64,000 nucleotides of DNA from Okibacterium sp. HSC-33S16 (GTDB lineage: Bacteria; Actinomycetota; Actinomycetes; Actinomycetales; Microbacteriaceae), in the NCBI RefSeq assembly GCF_024171565.1, contig NZ_JALJZZ010000002.1, positions 496,001-560,000 of the forward strand. The letters are read 5' to 3'. Positions 13,896-21,863 of the stretch are shown piece after piece; the stretch's first letter is position 1, and each line of letters begins with the position of its first letter. Both the position numbers and the translations under genes were made by a program. Below the pieces are notes generated by a model that had not been told where the DNA came from, made no database searches, and saw nothing but the letters and a program-made list of their open reading frames with translations.

Positions 13896-15227
13896 ATGCG
13901 CATGCGACTTCGGACCCTCATCGCGACGATCGCCCTTGGGGTTGTTGTCGCCTCCGTGGGAGTTTCCGCACCCGCCACCGCAGCGACGAGTTACCCCTCC
14001 TGGGAAGACGTTCAGAACGCGCGGGCAAGTGAGTCCGCCAAGGCCGCCGAGATCACCAAGATCGAAGATCTCATCGCCGGGCTTCGCACGAATGCGGAGA
14101 ACGCGCAGCTTGCTGCAGTTGCCGCCGCCGACGAATACCAGATCGCTCTGGCCGTCGCCGAAGAGGCGCTCATCAAGTCTGAAGACCTCAAGACCCAGCT
14201 CGCGACCGCTCAGGAAACAGCGGCCGCCTCGTCGAAGCAAGCGGGCGCACTCTTCGCCCAAATGGGTCGTACGAGCACGTTCGACACCACGGCGAGTCTG
14301 CTCCTCGACTCCAAGCAGGCCGACGACACTCTCTACAAGCTCGGCGCGGTGTCCAAGCTCACCTCCCTGTCGACCGAGTTGCTCGACACCGCGGAGCAGG
14401 ATGCCAACCAGGTGACCTCGCTCTCCGCGCAGGGCGAAGTCGCTGCTCAAGTTCTCGAAGATGCCCGCGCTGACTCCGAGGACAAGCTCGACAAGGCCAA
14501 TGCGGCCGCCGACGCCGCAGCAGCAGCGGTTGCCGAGCAGGAAGCTCACGAAGAAACGCTCCTCGGTCAGCTGTCACTGCTCAAGGGTCAGACCGCGTCG
14601 ATCGAAGAGGGATATCAGGCCGGTGTCGCCGAGCGAGCCCGACTGGCAGCGATCGAAGCTGAACGTCAGCGCAAGCTCGCTGAAGAACGCGCGGCAGCGG
14701 CAGCCGCAGCCGCCGCAGCGGCCGCGAAAAACAACACCGGTGGCGGCGGAAGCAGCAGCGGCGGTGGCGGTGGCGGATCGAACGCCGGCGCAACCGGTAC
14801 CTACTTCCAGGCCTCAGCTCAGGGCTGGTGGCGACCGCTGCCCGGAGCCATCACCTCTTGGTACGGCCCGCGCCAGAAGCTCTGCGGTGGCACCGGCTGC
14901 TCGGTTCCGTTCCACGCCGGCATCGACTTCGGAAACGCTTGTGGCAGCGCGGTAAAGGCCGTCCATAGTGGAACCGTCACAGGCGCTTATTACTCGAGTG
15001 CGTTCGGGTACCGCGTGATCATCGACCACGGCGGCGTCAGCTCCACCTATGGGCACCTCAGCGCGGGCTCTTTCCGGGTGGGTGTCGGACAGCAGGTGTC
15101 GGGCGGTCAGATCATCGCGAGCGTCGGTAAAACCGGTGTCGCGACCGGCTGTCACCTCGACCTCAAGATCAACGACGGTGCCACTAACCCGGCCACCTTC
15201 CTCCGCGGCAAAGGCGTCTCGATCTAG
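13896..15227 (+). CDS. Secreted M23-family peptidoglycan endopeptidase with coiled-coil region
   Basis: A 443-residue exported protein with a signal peptide (about residues 1-30, ending near PATAATS), long Ala/Glu-rich coiled coils (about 40-265), a poly-Ala and Gly/Ser linker (about 268-305) and a C-terminal LytM/M23 domain. Zinc-site elements H340 and D344 (HAGID) and the catalytic H387 (YGHLS) are present. The last motif, normally HxH, reads H420-L-D422, replacing the third zinc ligand with Asp. The coiled coil plus LytM plan resembles EnvC/MepA-type cell-separation proteins. It may be a true hydrolase with altered metal binding or an inactive activator. Direct repeats upstream suggest regulator control. 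Confidence 0.88.
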   Translation: MRMRLRTLIATIALGVVVASVGVSAPATAATSYPSWEDVQNARASESAKAAEITKIEDLIAGLRTNAENAQLAAVAAADEYQIALAVAEEALIKSEDLKTQLATAQETAAASSKQAGALFAQMGRTSTFDTTASLLLDSKQADDTLYKLGAVSKLTSLSTELLDTAEQDANQVTSLSAQGEVAAQVLEDARADSEDKLDKANAAADAAAAAVAEQEAHEETLLGQLSLLKGQTASIEEGYQAGVAERARLAAIEAERQRKLAEERAAAAAAAAAAAAKNNTGGGGSSSGGGGGGSNAGATGTYFQASAQGWWRPLPGAITSWYGPRQKLCGGTGCSVPFHAGIDFGNACGSAVKAVHSGTVTGAYYSSAFGYRVIIDHGGVSSTYGHLSAGSFRVGVGQQVSGGQIIASVGKTGVATGCHLDLKINDGATNPATFLRGKGVSI

Positions 15228-17124: not shown

Positions 17125-17931
17125 ATGGGTGACCCGGTGGCGGATGCGACGAAGCAGCCGTCGGTCGACGTGCCTGCGGGTGGTGCCTCGGATGGGACTG
17201 TGCCGATCCGTCGGCGACCTTCTCAGGGTGGCGGTGCACCGTCCGTTCTGAGTCGCGTTGCGAATACCGTAGTGCGCGTCGTCAGCTGGACCGTGCTCAT
17301 CGTCTGCGGGCTTCTGATTGTTGGATTTGTTCTCGTTCCGCGTCTCACCGGCTCGACGCCGTACACGGTGCTGACCGGATCGATGCGACCGACGATGCCG
17401 CCGGGAACCACAGTGGTCGTGAAGCCACTGGCCTTCTCCGACATCCGGGTTGGTGATGTCATCACCTACCAGCTCCGTTCGGGGGAGCCCGAGGTGGTCA
17501 CGCACCGCGTGATCGGCATCAACATCACCGGTGACGGCGTACGACTCGAAACCCAGGGTGACGCAAACCCCATTCCCGACGAGAAGCTCGTACGCGAAGA
17601 ACAGGTTCGCGGCAAAGCGTGGTACTGGCTACCCGTGATCGGGTACGTCACGAACGGTGTGACCAGCGACACCCGCACCTGGCTCGCGCAAGGACTTGGC
17701 GTCGCGCTCATCGGCTATGCGGTTGTGACGGTGTTTCTTGCCGTCGTGCGTCGCAAGAGCGGCTCTCGGGACTCCGAGAACGCTGCTGTTGACGGTGATA
17801 CAGGAACGACGGCTGCCAGCGGAGATAGCGTGCCTGTAAAAAAGAAACCGATCTCAACGGAGCAGGCACTCACCCGTCGAGCGTTGCGACGCACGGGCGC
17901 CCCCGATCCGAGCGAAGCTCCGCCGAAATAG
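17125..17931 (+). CDS. ER/archaeal-type signal peptidase I (SipW-like)
   Basis: A 268-residue membrane protease. After a helix (about residues 48-70) comes the nucleophile serine in VLTGSMRPTMPPGTTVV, and VTHRVIGI places a His where Gram-negative-type enzymes have the general-base Lys, defining the SipW/Sec11 branch. A second helix lies near residues 190-210, followed by a basic cytoplasmic tail rich in Lys, Arg and Pro. Such enzymes process a narrow set of exported proteins; the two following genes carry matching SipW-dependent signal peptides, so they are the likely substrates. It starts 4 bp after purA, which may be chance read-through coupling. Confidence 0.92.
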   Translation: MGDPVADATKQPSVDVPAGGASDGTVPIRRRPSQGGGAPSVLSRVANTVVRVVSWTVLIVCGLLIVGFVLVPRLTGSTPYTVLTGSMRPTMPPGTTVVVKPLAFSDIRVGDVITYQLRSGEPEVVTHRVIGINITGDGVRLETQGDANPIPDEKLVREEQVRGKAWYWLPVIGYVTNGVTSDTRTWLAQGLGVALIGYAVVTVFLAVVRRKSGSRDSENAAVDGDTGTTAASGDSVPVKKKPISTEQALTRRALRRTGAPDPSEAPPK

Positions 17932-18249
17932 CCCGACTTCCGTCATCCGAGTGCCAGCCCGACGTGCAGGCGTTGTTGGCCCGCGTGAGAGATATTGACG
18001 TTCAGGCGGCCGGTTCCCGATGCGCACGGGCACGCTGCTCAATACGACGTGGTCGCGCTCTCATTGCTGTGATTGCGCAGATCTTGCGGATAACCTGAGC
18101 TTTGCTGAAAGAACTATCGCAACCTTACGGATGTGTTCTGGGTGTTCTTGATTGTCGCCGGGGAATATGGCTCTTGTTGGAAGCGAAAGCGGAAAACCCC
18201 ATAGACTCCGGCCGCCTCTCGGCTGCCAGGCCCCAGAAGGAAGTACGCC
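17932..18249 (+). promoter_or_regulatory. 318-bp intergenic region between signal peptidase and first exported substrate
   Basis: No credible gene is seen. It holds a tandem TGTTCT pair at 18134-18139 and 18143-18148 (9-bp period, GGG spacer), which could be a response-regulator direct repeat. An AGAAGGAAG ribosome binding site follows just before the GTG at 18250. A promoter for the exported proteins probably lies here, but I cannot fix its -10 and -35. Confidence 0.4.
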
Positions 18250-18855
18250 GTGAAGAAGTTCAACATGAAGAAGACCACCGCTGCCGCGGTCGCCGCTGCC
18301 GTGGGTGCAGTTCTGCTCCTCGGAGGTGCGGGAACTCTCGCGTACTGGTCCGACACTACCCAGAGCGAAACCACCGCGATCTCTTCGGGTCAGCTTGACC
18401 TCCAAGCGGTACAGCCCGGAACGTGGACGGTGACCAACGGTGCGAGCGTCGACGTTCCTTTGACAGGCGACGCTGTTCCCGGCGATATTCTGACGTCGAA
18501 ATTCAATGTGCCGGTGACGCTCGAGGGCCAGAACATGCAGGCCGATCTCACTGTCACGCCAAGCGTTCCGACCATTACTCCCGTTGCGGGAACGACGACT
18601 GTCGATGGGGCAGTCCTTGCCCAGTACATGCAGCTGAAGCTCGAGGGTTTTGACGCCAACCAGAAGTCGACGGGAGTCACCAGCGGGCCGCTTACGGCGA
18701 CGACACTCTCGAAGATCACGCCTTCTACGGTTACTGTCAAGGTGAGCGTGACGGTTGCGTTCCCCTTTGATACAGACTTCAAGCAGGACGCGATGAACCG
18801 CACTCTGCAGGCCATTACGATGAACTACTCACTCGTTCAGGTTCGGAAGGCCTAG
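18250..18855 (+). CDS. Exported protein with SipW-dependent signal peptide (TasA-like), copy 1
   Basis: A 201-residue protein. The signal region GAVLLLGGAGTLAYWSDTT followed by SSGQLDLQ matches the alternate SipW-processed class, resembling Bacillus TasA (GGGTWAAFND ... SGTLDLS). The mature part has a PGD element (AVPGDILTSKFNVPVTLEGQ), as in TasA-like beta-sandwich filament proteins, and no cysteines. The GTG start at 18250 is supported by an AGAAGGAAG site; an ATG five codons later is possible. It is probably a secreted fibre or matrix subunit cleaved by the upstream signal peptidase. Filament formation is inferred from family resemblance only. Confidence 0.85.
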   Translation: MKKFNMKKTTAAAVAAAVGAVLLLGGAGTLAYWSDTTQSETTAISSGQLDLQAVQPGTWTVTNGASVDVPLTGDAVPGDILTSKFNVPVTLEGQNMQADLTVTPSVPTITPVAGTTTVDGAVLAQYMQLKLEGFDANQKSTGVTSGPLTATTLSKITPSTVTVKVSVTVAFPFDTDFKQDAMNRTLQAITMNYSLVQVRKA

Positions 18856-18870
18856 AACTCTTTATTTACG

Positions 18871-18898
18871 GCCCGGTCGTGTCCCGACACGACCGGGC
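18871..18898 (+). terminator. Hairpin between the two SipW-type substrates
   Basis: A perfect 12-bp GC-rich stem (18871-18882 and 18887-18898) with a CCCG loop, 15 bp after the first substrate gene. It is followed by only two T residues, so it may partially attenuate the downstream gene, setting subunit ratios. Confidence 0.7.
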
Positions 18899-18958
18899 TT
18901 GACCTCTTGAGACACCGGTTCAAACGGGCACCGCAGATCACGGAAGGAAGAGCGCGAC

Positions 18959-19582
18959 ATGAAGAAGTCCACCCGCTCTCTTCTTGGTGCTTCTTCGGCA
19001 GCCCTTCTCGGGGTGATTCTCCTTCTCGGCGGTACGGGCACTCTCGCATCCTGGACGAGCAACACGACGAGTTCCACCCAGCAGATTCAGTCCGGCACGC
19101 TACAGCTGGGATCGACCGACAAGATCAGTCTCACGGGTGCCACGATCCTGCACTGCACTTCCGTCTGCCCTCTGAACGCGCCCGCTGAAGCGTATACCGG
19201 GCAAGTCCTTGTTCCCGGCGATGTCATAACGGCGACCATGTCGATTCCCGTCACTCTGACCGGGCAGAACATGAAGGCCAACTTCTCGGTCAGCCCTCGC
19301 AAGGCGGCTGGAACGGCAGATGCCTCTGGGGTGGTCATCGCCACAGACGCCGATACCGCTCTCGCTACGGCGCTGCAAATGTCGGTCACCCAGATCGACG
19401 GTCAGAAACTCAAATCCGCCCCCGACACCACGCAGTCGATCGGAATGGGCGTCAGAACTACTCCGGTCGTCGTCACTCTGGAAATCAAATTCCCCTGGGG
19501 AGAGCCCGGTCAGTTCAACAAAGCGATGGGCGGGACAGTCGGTCTGACGGCCGTGTACTCGCTCACACAGGTCGCGGGTTAG
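18959..19582 (+). CDS. Exported protein with SipW-dependent signal peptide (TasA-like), copy 2
   Basis: A 207-residue paralogue of the preceding protein. The signal region LLGVILLLGGTGTLASWTSN followed by IQSGTLQLG aligns with copy 1, as do the PGD element (VLVPGDVITATMSIPVTLTG) and the C-terminal strands ending VGLTAVYSLTQVAG. It differs by an inserted ILHCTSVCPLN segment with two cysteines (C-N3-C), which could form a disulfide outside the cell. GGAAGGAAGAG precedes the ATG. It may be a minor or accessory subunit relative to copy 1, given the intervening hairpin. Confidence 0.85.
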   Translation: MKKSTRSLLGASSAALLGVILLLGGTGTLASWTSNTTSSTQQIQSGTLQLGSTDKISLTGATILHCTSVCPLNAPAEAYTGQVLVPGDVITATMSIPVTLTGQNMKANFSVSPRKAAGTADASGVVIATDADTALATALQMSVTQIDGQKLKSAPDTTQSIGMGVRTTPVVVTLEIKFPWGEPGQFNKAMGGTVGLTAVYSLTQVAG

Positions 19583-19799
19583 CCGCCGTCGCAGCCTTGT
19601 AACCCAGAGCTACCGCACGGTTGATCTCCCTCCGATAAGGCCGTTCGGCTGCGGCCACGATCATGGGCGGCGCCGGCCATGTCTTCGTGGCTGTAAGCTC
19701 GCATCACGCTTCACATAAGTGACGCGAGTGGAGCCCATGATGGCGTGCATGGCACCGCTCAGGCAATCTCATGACGTCCAGTGTGGGGTGCCGACATCC

Positions 19800-20489
19800 A
19801 TGGGTAAACGAGTCAAATTGGCTGACTGGTCTATGACCGTGGCCGGGACCGCTCTCGCAGTCCTCACAATTGTGGTCGTCGTTGTTGCCTCACCGACCCC
19901 AGCTTCTGCTGAACATCGCGAGCGCACACTTCATATGACACGGGTCGACGGGGCTCCGATTGGTGCATTGTTCGACGACTGGGTCATGGTACCGGGTGAC
20001 AAGGCCAGTACGACGGTCGTCGCCAATCGGACAGGTGGCGGAGTTTCTTCGCTCGCCATCACGCTCGGAAACGGGAACACCCGGGCCGCGAGTGCGGCAG
20101 CGCTGCCAATCGAGGAGAACCTGCTGATCACAGCAGAAGTGAACGGACTTGTGTTTCGGTCCTCTGCAGCGTCACTCATGCAAGGCGATGCCGTTTTCGA
20201 CCTGGGTCGCAGTACCGATCCTGCCGTCCCGATCGACGTCACATTCGAGCTTCCCTTCGAGTCAGGAAACAACACCCAACAGCAACCGTTCGATCTATCG
20301 TTGGTCGTCACAGCCGCTGATGTACCGACATCAGCGGACTCCCGGATTCGGGAGACGACGCTTCCGCTCCTTCCGGGAACCGGAGCATCCGTTCGCGACA
20401 TCCTTATCGCCGCAGGTGCTCTTACCATGTCTGGGCTCCTCCTTCTGGGGGGTAGGCAAAAACGGCGTGAACGGCAGAACGCGAGCTAA
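19800..20489 (+). CDS. LPxTG cell-wall-anchored surface protein with PGD-type domain
   Basis: A 229-residue protein from ATG 19800, with a signal peptide (MGKRVKLADW then a hydrophobic stretch, cleaved near ASA-EH). The middle domain has VMVPGDKASTTVVANRT, echoing the PGD element of the two SipW substrates. The C-terminus has LPGTG, then a hydrophobic helix (about 22 residues) and a basic tail GRQKRRERQNAS, a standard sortase sorting signal. No sortase gene is in the window. In-frame starts at 19719 and 19737 are possible but would put a polar segment before the signal peptide. It probably anchors or caps the secreted proteins at the wall. Confidence 0.8.
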   Translation: MGKRVKLADWSMTVAGTALAVLTIVVVVVASPTPASAEHRERTLHMTRVDGAPIGALFDDWVMVPGDKASTTVVANRTGGGVSSLAITLGNGNTRAASAAALPIEENLLITAEVNGLVFRSSAASLMQGDAVFDLGRSTDPAVPIDVTFELPFESGNNTQQQPFDLSLVVTAADVPTSADSRIRETTLPLLPGTGASVRDILIAAGALTMSGLLLLGGRQKRRERQNAS

Positions 20490-20500
20490 GGTTTAGGGAG

Positions 20501-20517
20501 CGTGACAGGGGGTCACG
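20501..20517. promoter_or_regulatory. Perfect CGTGAC-N5-GTCACG palindrome before the response regulator gene
   Basis: A 6-bp perfect inverted repeat with a 5-nt centre lies 11 bp after the LPxTG gene and 61 bp before the regulator start. It could be an operator for the regulator's own promoter. It lacks a T-run, so it is a poor terminator. Confidence 0.45.
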
Positions 20518-20577
20518 TGCCACACCGTAACCGACGGCTTGAGTCGCTCGATGTGCTTGCCAGGGAACAGCCGAAAT

Positions 20578-21429
20578 ATGTCAGACCGCTCCATCCGCAC
20601 CGCCGTAGTCATTGAGGACGATGCCGACATTCGTGGACTCATTGAAACGGTTCTCCGCCAGGGCGGCTTCACAGTCACTTCGACGGCCGACGGGGCTGAG
20701 GGAGTCGAACTCGTTCGAACTCTGGCACCGACGATTGTGACCCTCGACGTCGGGCTCATCGACATCGACGGCCTCGAAGTGGCACGCCGTATCCGTTTGT
20801 TCAGCGATTGCTACATCGTCATGGTCACCGCGCAGGGGGACGAGGCGGATCTCCTCTTCGGGCTCGAATCCGGCGCTGATGATTACGTCATCAAACCCTT
20901 CCGGCCGCGGGAACTGCGAGCTCGGGTTGAGGCCATGATGCGCCGGCCGCGCGCGTCTGCCGTCCCCCAAGCAGCGGAAGCTGCTGTTCTCGTTCCCGCA
21001 CAGGCCTCCGGTGTGGGAGCAGTCGCTACGCAGATAGCACCGACCCTCGCGACCGGCCCGGGTGCGTCCGCCGACGACAGCGGTGAACTGATTTTTCGCC
21101 ACAACGGGCTCACCTTGAACGCCGACACTCGCACCGTTGAATTGGGCGACGTCGAGCTGGACCTCACCCGCACTGAGTTCGACCTCCTCCAGTCGCTGTT
21201 GAGCAGTAAACGCCGGGTTCGCTCCAAAGCGGATCTGGTGCGCGACCTCCGTGACGAGGATTACGTCGCCAACGACTATGTCAGCGAGTCGGAAGAACGA
21301 GCGATCGAAGTTCACTTCGCGAATTTGCGCCGGAAGTTGTCTGACGACCCGAAGCATCCGCTCTGGGTGGAAACGGTTCGTGGCGTCGGCTACCGGCTAC
21401 CGCCGGCTCGCGACGGTGAACGCTCATAA
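20578..21429 (+). CDS. OmpR/PhoB-family response regulator with long inter-domain linker
   Basis: A 283-residue regulator. The receiver (residues 8-122) has acidic EDD at 13-15, phosphoacceptor D57 in VTLDVGL, T84 and K106 (VIKPFRP). An Ala/Pro/Val-rich linker of about 45 residues (125-168) then leads to a winged-helix DNA-binding domain (170-278, ending VRGVGYRLPP). That linker is several times the usual length. The ATG at 20578 is chosen because the receiver starts directly after it; a TTG 39 bp upstream is less likely. No histidine kinase is adjacent. It follows the exported-protein genes and is convergent with an Hpt-like gene, so it is the natural regulator of the cluster, by inference. 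Confidence 0.88.
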   Translation: MSDRSIRTAVVIEDDADIRGLIETVLRQGGFTVTSTADGAEGVELVRTLAPTIVTLDVGLIDIDGLEVARRIRLFSDCYIVMVTAQGDEADLLFGLESGADDYVIKPFRPRELRARVEAMMRRPRASAVPQAAEAAVLVPAQASGVGAVATQIAPTLATGPGASADDSGELIFRHNGLTLNADTRTVELGDVELDLTRTEFDLLQSLLSSKRRVRSKADLVRDLRDEDYVANDYVSESEERAIEVHFANLRRKLSDDPKHPLWVETVRGVGYRLPPARDGERS

Positions 21430-21470
21430 CTCGCCGCTGATCGAAGCGCAACCGCGGCGGGGCTTGGGCC

Positions 21471-21863
21471 CTACGGTCGGCGGGCTTTGAGCGCCATCAG
21501 TGACTCAGCCCCCACAGCCCGCAACGTTTGCACACGGCCGAGAGCCGCAGGGAAATCTCCTGTACGCACCATGTGCTCGAGCTCGCAAGCGAGCGAAGTG
21601 AGTTGGCTCGTTCCGATCATCTGGCTCGACACCTTGAGGCTGAGAACAGCTGTCAATGCTCCATCGTGATCCCGGGCAGTGACACGCTCATCGATTCGCA
21701 CCAACCGGGTGGGCCATTGGGAGACAAAGGCACAGACGAATCCCGTGACGGCGTCCCGATCGTCGTCGAGCGACTCCAGCAGATTTAGAAGTGCGGTGTC
21801 ATCAACGAGAGGGAGACGCCCGGCGAGGAAATCGGGGAGGTCATTCGGGGGAAACCTCACCAT
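21471..21863 (-). CDS. Hpt-like helical protein lacking the phosphorylatable histidine
   Basis: A 130-residue, all-helical protein. The second half has the Hpt signature layout, but where true Hpt domains have A-H-x-L-K-G-S-S this one reads V-L-S-L-K-V-S-S, putting Leu in the place of the phospho-accepting His. The following MIGTSQLTSLACELE helix fits the Hpt fold. It cannot relay phosphate by the usual His, so it may bind receivers as an inhibitor or scaffold. Convergent with the response regulator, 41 bp between stops. The fold call rests on motif reading and is moderate in certainty. Confidence 0.65.
   Translation of the reverse strand: MVRFPPNDLPDFLAGRLPLVDDTALLNLLESLDDDRDAVTGFVCAFVSQWPTRLVRIDERVTARDHDGALTAVLSLKVSSQMIGTSQLTSLACELEHMVRTGDFPAALGRVQTLRAVGAESLMALKARRP

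Follow-up and report, generated by a model that had tools for sequence, protein, structure and literature searches.

Protein-matrix systems of the TasA type have been worked out in Bacillus. The cluster described here, which lies in the actinobacterium Okibacterium sp. HSC-33S16, resembles the Bacillus tapA-sipW-tasA and sipW-calY loci in having a SipW-type signal peptidase, small exported proteins with SipW-type signals, a PGD element and a predicted beta-sandwich. It encodes this peptidase, two TasA-like exported proteins (Tas1 and Tas2), a surface protein with an LPGTG motif, an OmpR-family response regulator (RR) and an Hpt-like protein that lacks the phosphate-carrying histidine (pHpt). 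The analysed stretch, called the window, comprises 64,000 nucleotides (C2:496001-560000 of genome G000, 3.2 Mb). Two TasA-like paralogues next to SipW are also found in the Bacillus cereus sipW-calY1-bc_1280-calY2 locus, and TasA assembles by donor strands (both from PMC10151520). In contrast to Bacillus, where TasA is under SinR control (PMC9674648), the likely control here is a set of kinase, RR and pHpt. The cluster further differs in that its exported proteins belong to an actinobacterial subfamily, TIGR04089, and in its extra sortase-type surface protein; polymerisation of its exported proteins is a prediction.

Hpt-like proteins without a phospho-histidine have been described in two settings. 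Plant pseudo-HPt proteins of the AHP6 type are one, and AHP6 is an inhibitor. The other is bacterial FimL, in which glutamine occupies both sites and which is believed to work through interaction (PMC3019171). pHpt differs from both: it has leucine (or glycine or alanine) at the site, is seen in actinobacteria, and is linked either to a single kind of RR, tail-to-tail, or to a GT2 enzyme. Plants and FimL were what a literature search on pseudo-HPt returned, and in the mostly open-licence literature no description was found of a His-less Hpt that is conserved and linked to a single RR lineage. Nothing relevant was found on SipW in actinobacteria or in Arthrobacter, on the names of the NCBI families or on XrtP, nor, in open-licence literature, on the control of TasA-like systems in actinobacteria. 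The RR-pHpt pairing is kept in many related bacteria, which hints at an undescribed mode of control over the biofilm matrix. The original prediction had called the whole its best candidate for an undescribed system; as far as the search reached this holds for the control part, but the proteins of the structural part fall into NCBI families that already have names.

The histidine-less Hpt protein

The window pHpt scores 23.6 against the Pfam Hpt family PF01627, just short of the gathering cut-off of 24.6, and an Hpt profile matches six of six pHpt members at E <= 0.1 (best 2e-6). A profile of the pHpt family finds the solved Hpt protein HptA (7c1i) at E 2.7e-7, with a leucine aligned to the 7c1i histidine. 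All six aligned members have Leu-Ser at this site. A set of 32 aligned members holds 31 leucines, one glycine and no histidine, and the following serine is invariant. Leu-Ser is also found in all 65 pHpt open reading frames (ORFs) taken from 80 named RR loci (Arthrobacter, Pseudarthrobacter, Plantibacter, Mycetocola and others), at a mean pairwise identity of 49%. The sets of 32 and 65 overlap by a few records, and some loci and genomes are the same record (L179 and G002, L180 and G245, L181 and G149, L182 and G098, L183 and G210, L185 and G135, L255 and G120), so that locus sets are counted separately. Since the 65 ORFs use five leucine codons at this identity (CTG 31, CTC 27, CTT 4, TTG 2, CTA 1), the residue seems to be under selection; a methionine and a glycine further along are also invariant among them. 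Thirteen loci from other families have seven leucines, four glycines, one alanine and one histidine (L178), giving 12 of 13 without histidine. The "dead" Hpt of the original prediction thus does lack its histidine, and the loss is a conserved trait rather than mere decay.

This conservation bears on a simpler account, in which an ordinary SipW/TIGR04089 surface-protein locus happens to have as neighbours a two-component gene with no link to it and the decaying remnant of an Hpt. The SipW/TIGR04089 part is indeed common (67 of 150 Microbacteriaceae genomes contain TIGR04089), and most of the 73 neighbourhoods read besides the window have Tas and SipW without RR or pHpt, both being present in five, plus the window. 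But a relic would not hold Leu-Ser in 65 of 65 members at such divergence, nor would it keep its tail-to-tail pairing with the RR across families, and we find this account highly improbable. A different alternative is that pHpt still handles phosphate through another residue, such as the invariant serine, or drains phosphate from the RR. The serine follows the lost histidine in every member of both sets, accompanied in the 65 by the invariant Met and Gly. However, a serine also follows the histidine in 7c1i (AHSFKG) and may therefore be structural, and the fused forms described below have Gly-Ser or Ala-Ser at the site instead of Leu-Ser. We know of no Hpt that uses serine. Phosphate handling by pHpt appears improbable.

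The pHpt profile matches 71 of 398 Microbacteriaceae genomes. With a wider profile (E <= 1e-6), 44 of the 297 genomes drawn from the order and 38 of the 345 drawn from the class have a match, the two draws sharing genomes; the loci read were the best ones, and weaker matches may be ordinary Hpt proteins.

Response regulator, likely kinase and glycosyltransferase fusions

The gene that faces pHpt encodes an RR of a single family in 28 of the 30 best loci. The same holds for 12 of the 13 loci from other families, the exception being L178, the locus with the histidine. Among the 80 named loci, 57 have pHpt tail-to-tail within 400 bp of the RR, and in 38 of these pairs the frames overlap by about 21 bases. 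The RR of the window has its closest named relatives in Mycetocola. It consists of a receiver (Response_reg, residues 23-131, 85.3 bits) and a winged helix (Trans_reg_C, 206-287, 67.7 bits). It had been described as atypical, with a 45-residue linker. The OmpR-family assignment and the long linker stand, but the DD/D/T/K residues of the receiver are canonical and invariant in six of six aligned RRs; the linker was rejected as a special feature because its length and sequence differ among orthologues.

No kinase gene was seen next to the window genes. A kinase-profile match (E <= 1e-40) is found in 71 of the 80 named loci, directly divergent from the RR in 45, and the kinase His-Glu pair is invariant in 12 of 12 aligned members. 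All 13 tested genomes of three genera (the window's genus, g2 and g17) have this kinase family, with a best E of 9.9e-192 or lower, and the gene after it encodes a membrane protein whose GGDEF domain is degenerate. In the window genome the kinase lies at C4:83850-85463 (E 4.4e-199), on a different contig from the cluster, flanked by genes that we take by eye to be asd and mqo. The proposal that the cluster is self-contained is therefore not supported: the likely kinase, of the family that accompanies this RR in relatives, and its degenerate-GGDEF neighbour are elsewhere, and the range of the RR-pHpt pair extends well past that of the SipW cluster. As the receiver residues and the kinase His-Glu are canonical, kinase and RR resemble an ordinary phosphotransfer pair, with pHpt outside the phosphate path. 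In the window genome (C4:83850-87785, L157) the kinase is followed by two degenerate-GGDEF membrane proteins in tandem, and this second copy is also present in G086 and G200.

The main argument for contact between pHpt and receiver comes from five loci (L121, L167, L170, L171 and L174) in which pHpt forms the C-terminal part of a GT2 protein, the Pfam GT2 and Hpt-profile matches lying in one frame. The gene facing these fusions encodes a receiver without a DNA-binding domain in five of five cases. Seven other-family pHpt proteins not seen fused to GT2 face receivers with a matched DNA-binding part; L166 (602-residue frame, no Pfam match) and L177 (326-residue frame) were counted as not seen fused. 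L169 was dropped as a sixth fusion, its 405-residue frame having no GT2 match; its partner is receiver-only. Such a swap of output domain between the partners predicts that pHpt and receiver bind each other. The GT2 part of L171 passes the model of the XrtP-associated glycosyltransferase NF053846 (530.7 > 520), and the match stops at residue 486, before the pHpt tail (502-612). The window cluster has no GT2 gene.

We tentatively propose, with slightly less than even confidence, that a large actinobacterial Hpt family gave up phosphotransfer and became a dedicated docking module for one receiver lineage, the two forming a split output switch. Under one canonical kinase, the effector would sit either on the receiver, as a DNA-binding domain acting on TasA-like or polysaccharide matrix genes, or on pHpt, as a glycosyltransferase. 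In the fusion lineages, where pHpt is a glycosyltransferase tail and the receiver is bare, docking would act directly on the enzyme. A conserved His-less Hpt paired with a canonical RR offers a simple case in which to test whether parts of a phosphorelay have come to serve as binding modules.

The SipW cluster and its proposed control

The signal peptidase is of the archaeal/ER type (TIGR02228), as had been predicted, and its translation shows a serine (TGSM) and a histidine (VTHRV), presumably the catalytic residues. Against the Bacillus SipW equivalog NF046067 it scores 76.4, under the cut-off of 190, and it is thus not the Bacillus equivalog. The prediction of two exported paralogues with SipW signals is likewise supported: both Tas proteins clear the cut-offs of TIGR04089 (101.6 for Tas1 and 69.0 for Tas2, cut-off 60) and of the SipW-signal model TIGR04088 (34.8 for each, cut-off 19). 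Tas1 also matches camelysin (PF12389, 26.1 > 22.5), and Tas2 does not.

Sequence-profile searches of the PDB gave no meaningful match with Tas (A6), no TasA being among the matches, and none with the LPGTG protein (A7). The AlphaFold2 model of Tas1 has a mean confidence (pLDDT) of 69, from 27 sequences. In Foldseek it finds the TasA fibre 8aur at rank 2 (E 6.5e-4, probability 1.00, TM score 0.44, root-mean-square deviation (rmsd) 9.5) and an archaeal (Pyrobaculum) bundling pilin at rank 3; in VIA-align, TasA gives Z 6.2 with an rmsd of 5.5 over 148 aligned residues, tied with other sandwiches. The model of the LPGTG protein (pLDDT 57, from 5 sequences) finds 8aur at rank 6, and its Z for TasA is 7.2. 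The models make a TasA-like sandwich likely, and the proteins may form fibres. These results, together with the TIGR04088 and TIGR04089 matches, uphold the prediction of a SipW/TasA-like export and surface cluster.

The LPGTG protein had been described as an LPxTG protein with a PGD element similar to that of the exported pair. The LPGTG motif, the hydrophobic stretch and the basic tail are all present, and the VPGD element lies within an alignment of the LPGTG and Tas families (hhalign, Prob 90.8, E 1.2e-6, 153 columns) to which the signal region contributes. However, the protein misses the curated LPXTG cut-offs (NCBIfam 14.5 < 15.9; Pfam 14.9 < 20), and seven aligned members, including that of the window, have LPxTG in three cases and LSxTG in four. 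An iterated LPXTG profile drifted into Tas proteins (143 ORFs), and this was used as a hint of kinship, retested by hhalign. One sortase match is found in the window genome. The export and structural part is a fresh member of already named NCBI families: Tas-Tas-SipW clusters are common, and the TIGR04089 and TIGR04088 models name the exported proteins alone, leaving the RR and pHpt outside.

Random separation of the six genes in relatives, which the original prediction had named as counting against it, is not seen. SipW, at least two Tas proteins, an LPGTG-type protein, RR and convergent pHpt stand in the same order in seven genomes, namely the window, L003, L004, L016, L051, L127 and L128. 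In L003 and L004, and perhaps also in L051, SipW and Tas1 are separated by other genes. L125 has the full set minus SipW in the stretch read, and in L007 the LPGTG protein was not found. These come from the 73 TIGR04089 neighbourhoods, the window and further genomes; in counting neighbourhoods one weak match was dropped (G003 C1:825361, E 3.1e-4). Within 20 kb of the RR, SipW and/or Tas genes are found in 10 of the 13 genomes of the three genera, the exceptions being G148, G199 and G245, in the last of which the contig ends. Among the 80 named loci, both occur within the 20 kb read in 21: four Mycetocola loci, 16 of 68 of Arthrobacter/Pseudarthrobacter type, and L210. G001 has its SipW cluster flanked by the RR and the kinase, an arrangement that ties the parts together.

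It could be argued that the RR, pHpt and kinase mainly control exopolysaccharide production (GT2, GH6, GGDEF) or something else, and that the SipW/Tas neighbourhood is secondary or coincidental. In many loci elsewhere in Microbacteriaceae, RR and pHpt indeed share the type of locus that holds the kinase and its degenerate-GGDEF neighbour, with GT2, lipoprotein-like, GH6 and GGDEF-EAL genes in varying subsets; in many of these, four Plantibacter loci included, SipW is absent, and most Pseudarthrobacter loci have no SipW nearby. But where SipW/Tas genes do occur, their layouts differ: upstream of the RR (Mycetocola), between RR and kinase (G001), beyond pHpt (Arthrobacter), beside pHpt away from the RR (L187, L210) or divergent from the RR (L215). 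A chance SipW/Tas match per 20 kb would be expected in less than 1% of cases, from about 0.5 TIGR04089 cluster per 3.3 Mb genome, a density measured in Microbacteriaceae. We judge this alternative unlikely.

The reading that we prefer, to which we give an even chance, is that kinase, RR and pHpt control the SipW/Tas/LPGTG matrix genes, with pHpt docking on the RR receiver. A membrane histidine kinase encoded elsewhere would phosphorylate the RR, which would control transcription of the adjacent signal peptidase, TasA-like and surface-anchor genes. SipW would cleave both Tas subunits, which would then assemble outside the cell with a beta-sandwich architecture like that of TasA, and the LPGTG protein would be the member attached to the cell. 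Although without its phosphate-carrying histidine, pHpt would keep the receiver-binding surface of an Hpt and dock on the RR receiver, thereby tuning the RR, most likely by restraining it or by blocking other contacts, as pseudo-HPt proteins are believed to do in plants. If this is true, the control of protein and polysaccharide matrices would be linked in Arthrobacter and its relatives.

Several observations weigh against this proposal. pHpt is lacking in 15 of the 80 named loci, and no SipW and Tas pair is present in 59 of them within the stretch read, some of which are cut by contig ends. In Mycetocola the kinase is not adjacent to the RR. At the window's chromosomal site in M. miduiensis (G149, i.e. 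L181; L005) the RR is kept and pHpt was not found, and the SipW cluster there is an ordinary one that diverges from the RR. G148 and G199 have an RR-pHpt locus without SipW genes. The kinase and SipW counts come from profiles that we built ourselves, and the loci are related and hence not independent. The fold models and the Tas1-TasA match are modest, and the VIA-align scores for TasA are not above those of other beta-sandwiches (pilus, carbohydrate-binding). Finally, five of eight upstream regions, compared with 2.8% of shuffles, have paired half-sites of the CTTGAGG type that are 11 bp apart and have no more than 3 mismatches in 14, but the half-site was picked after reading the same sequences, so this promoter box is post hoc and a lead only. 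One of the five, L004, has its best match at a different place on the opposite strand. The scores of L051, L127 and L125 are within the shuffle range.

Layout of the locus and minor features

The coordinates of the features are collected in Table 1. As predicted, the six genes adjoin one another, five on the plus strand; but the Hpt-like gene, on the minus strand, faces them and is not in their transcription unit. The RR likely starts at the ATG at 20578 rather than at 20539, and the start of the LPGTG protein may lie near 19800.

Table 1. Features of the window cluster and positions of the GT2-pHpt fusions
Feature	Position	Strand	Evidence or remark
SipW/Sec11-type (Ser/His) signal peptidase I, 268 residues	17125..17931	+	TIGR02228, 96.2 bits > 51.85
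Candidate regulator box (weak) before Tas1; two half-sites of the CTTGMGG type, 11 bp apart	18083..18101	+	3 mismatches in 14, lead only
Tas1, exported TasA-like protein carrying a SipW-type signal	18250..18855	+	TIGR04089, TIGR04088, PF12389
Tas2, paralogue of Tas1	18959..19582	+	TIGR04089, TIGR04088; no Pfam match
Surface protein; VPGD element, LPGTG motif, membrane helix, basic tail	19719..20489	+	Motifs visible, below LPXTG cut-offs
OmpR-family RR, canonical receiver and winged helix, long variable linker	20539..21429	+	Pfam
His-less Hpt protein (pHpt), 130 residues, Leu74-Ser75 at the phospho-His site	21471..21863	-	Near-cut-off Pfam Hpt, alignment to 7c1i
GT2-pHpt fusion	L121:8128-10122		
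GT2-pHpt fusion	L167:1-1872		
GT2-pHpt fusion	L170:1-1866		
GT2-pHpt fusion	L171:1-1926		
GT2-pHpt fusion	L174:1408-3336		

In fuller clusters there is a third Tas protein as well as OrfX, an exported protein; the window has neither. OrfX (L125:6755-7744, L016:10716-11696, L051:10803-11756) has a GxWC start region, and the one representative scanned had no Pfam or NCBIfam match. Upstream of Tas1 in L051 and L127 there are repeated AACCCGAAATTG-like units with irregular spacing. The L210 locus, with an Arthrobacter-like RR and SipW, is on a contig titled Sporosarcina beigongshangi and is probably misnamed or contaminating DNA.

The cluster is flanked by a purA-like gene and an ABC transporter; we assigned the names purA, lysC, asd, mqo and recR by eye from remembered sequence. 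Upstream of the cluster, window positions 13896-15227 encode an exported M23 peptidase with a coiled coil and a Gly/Ser linker.

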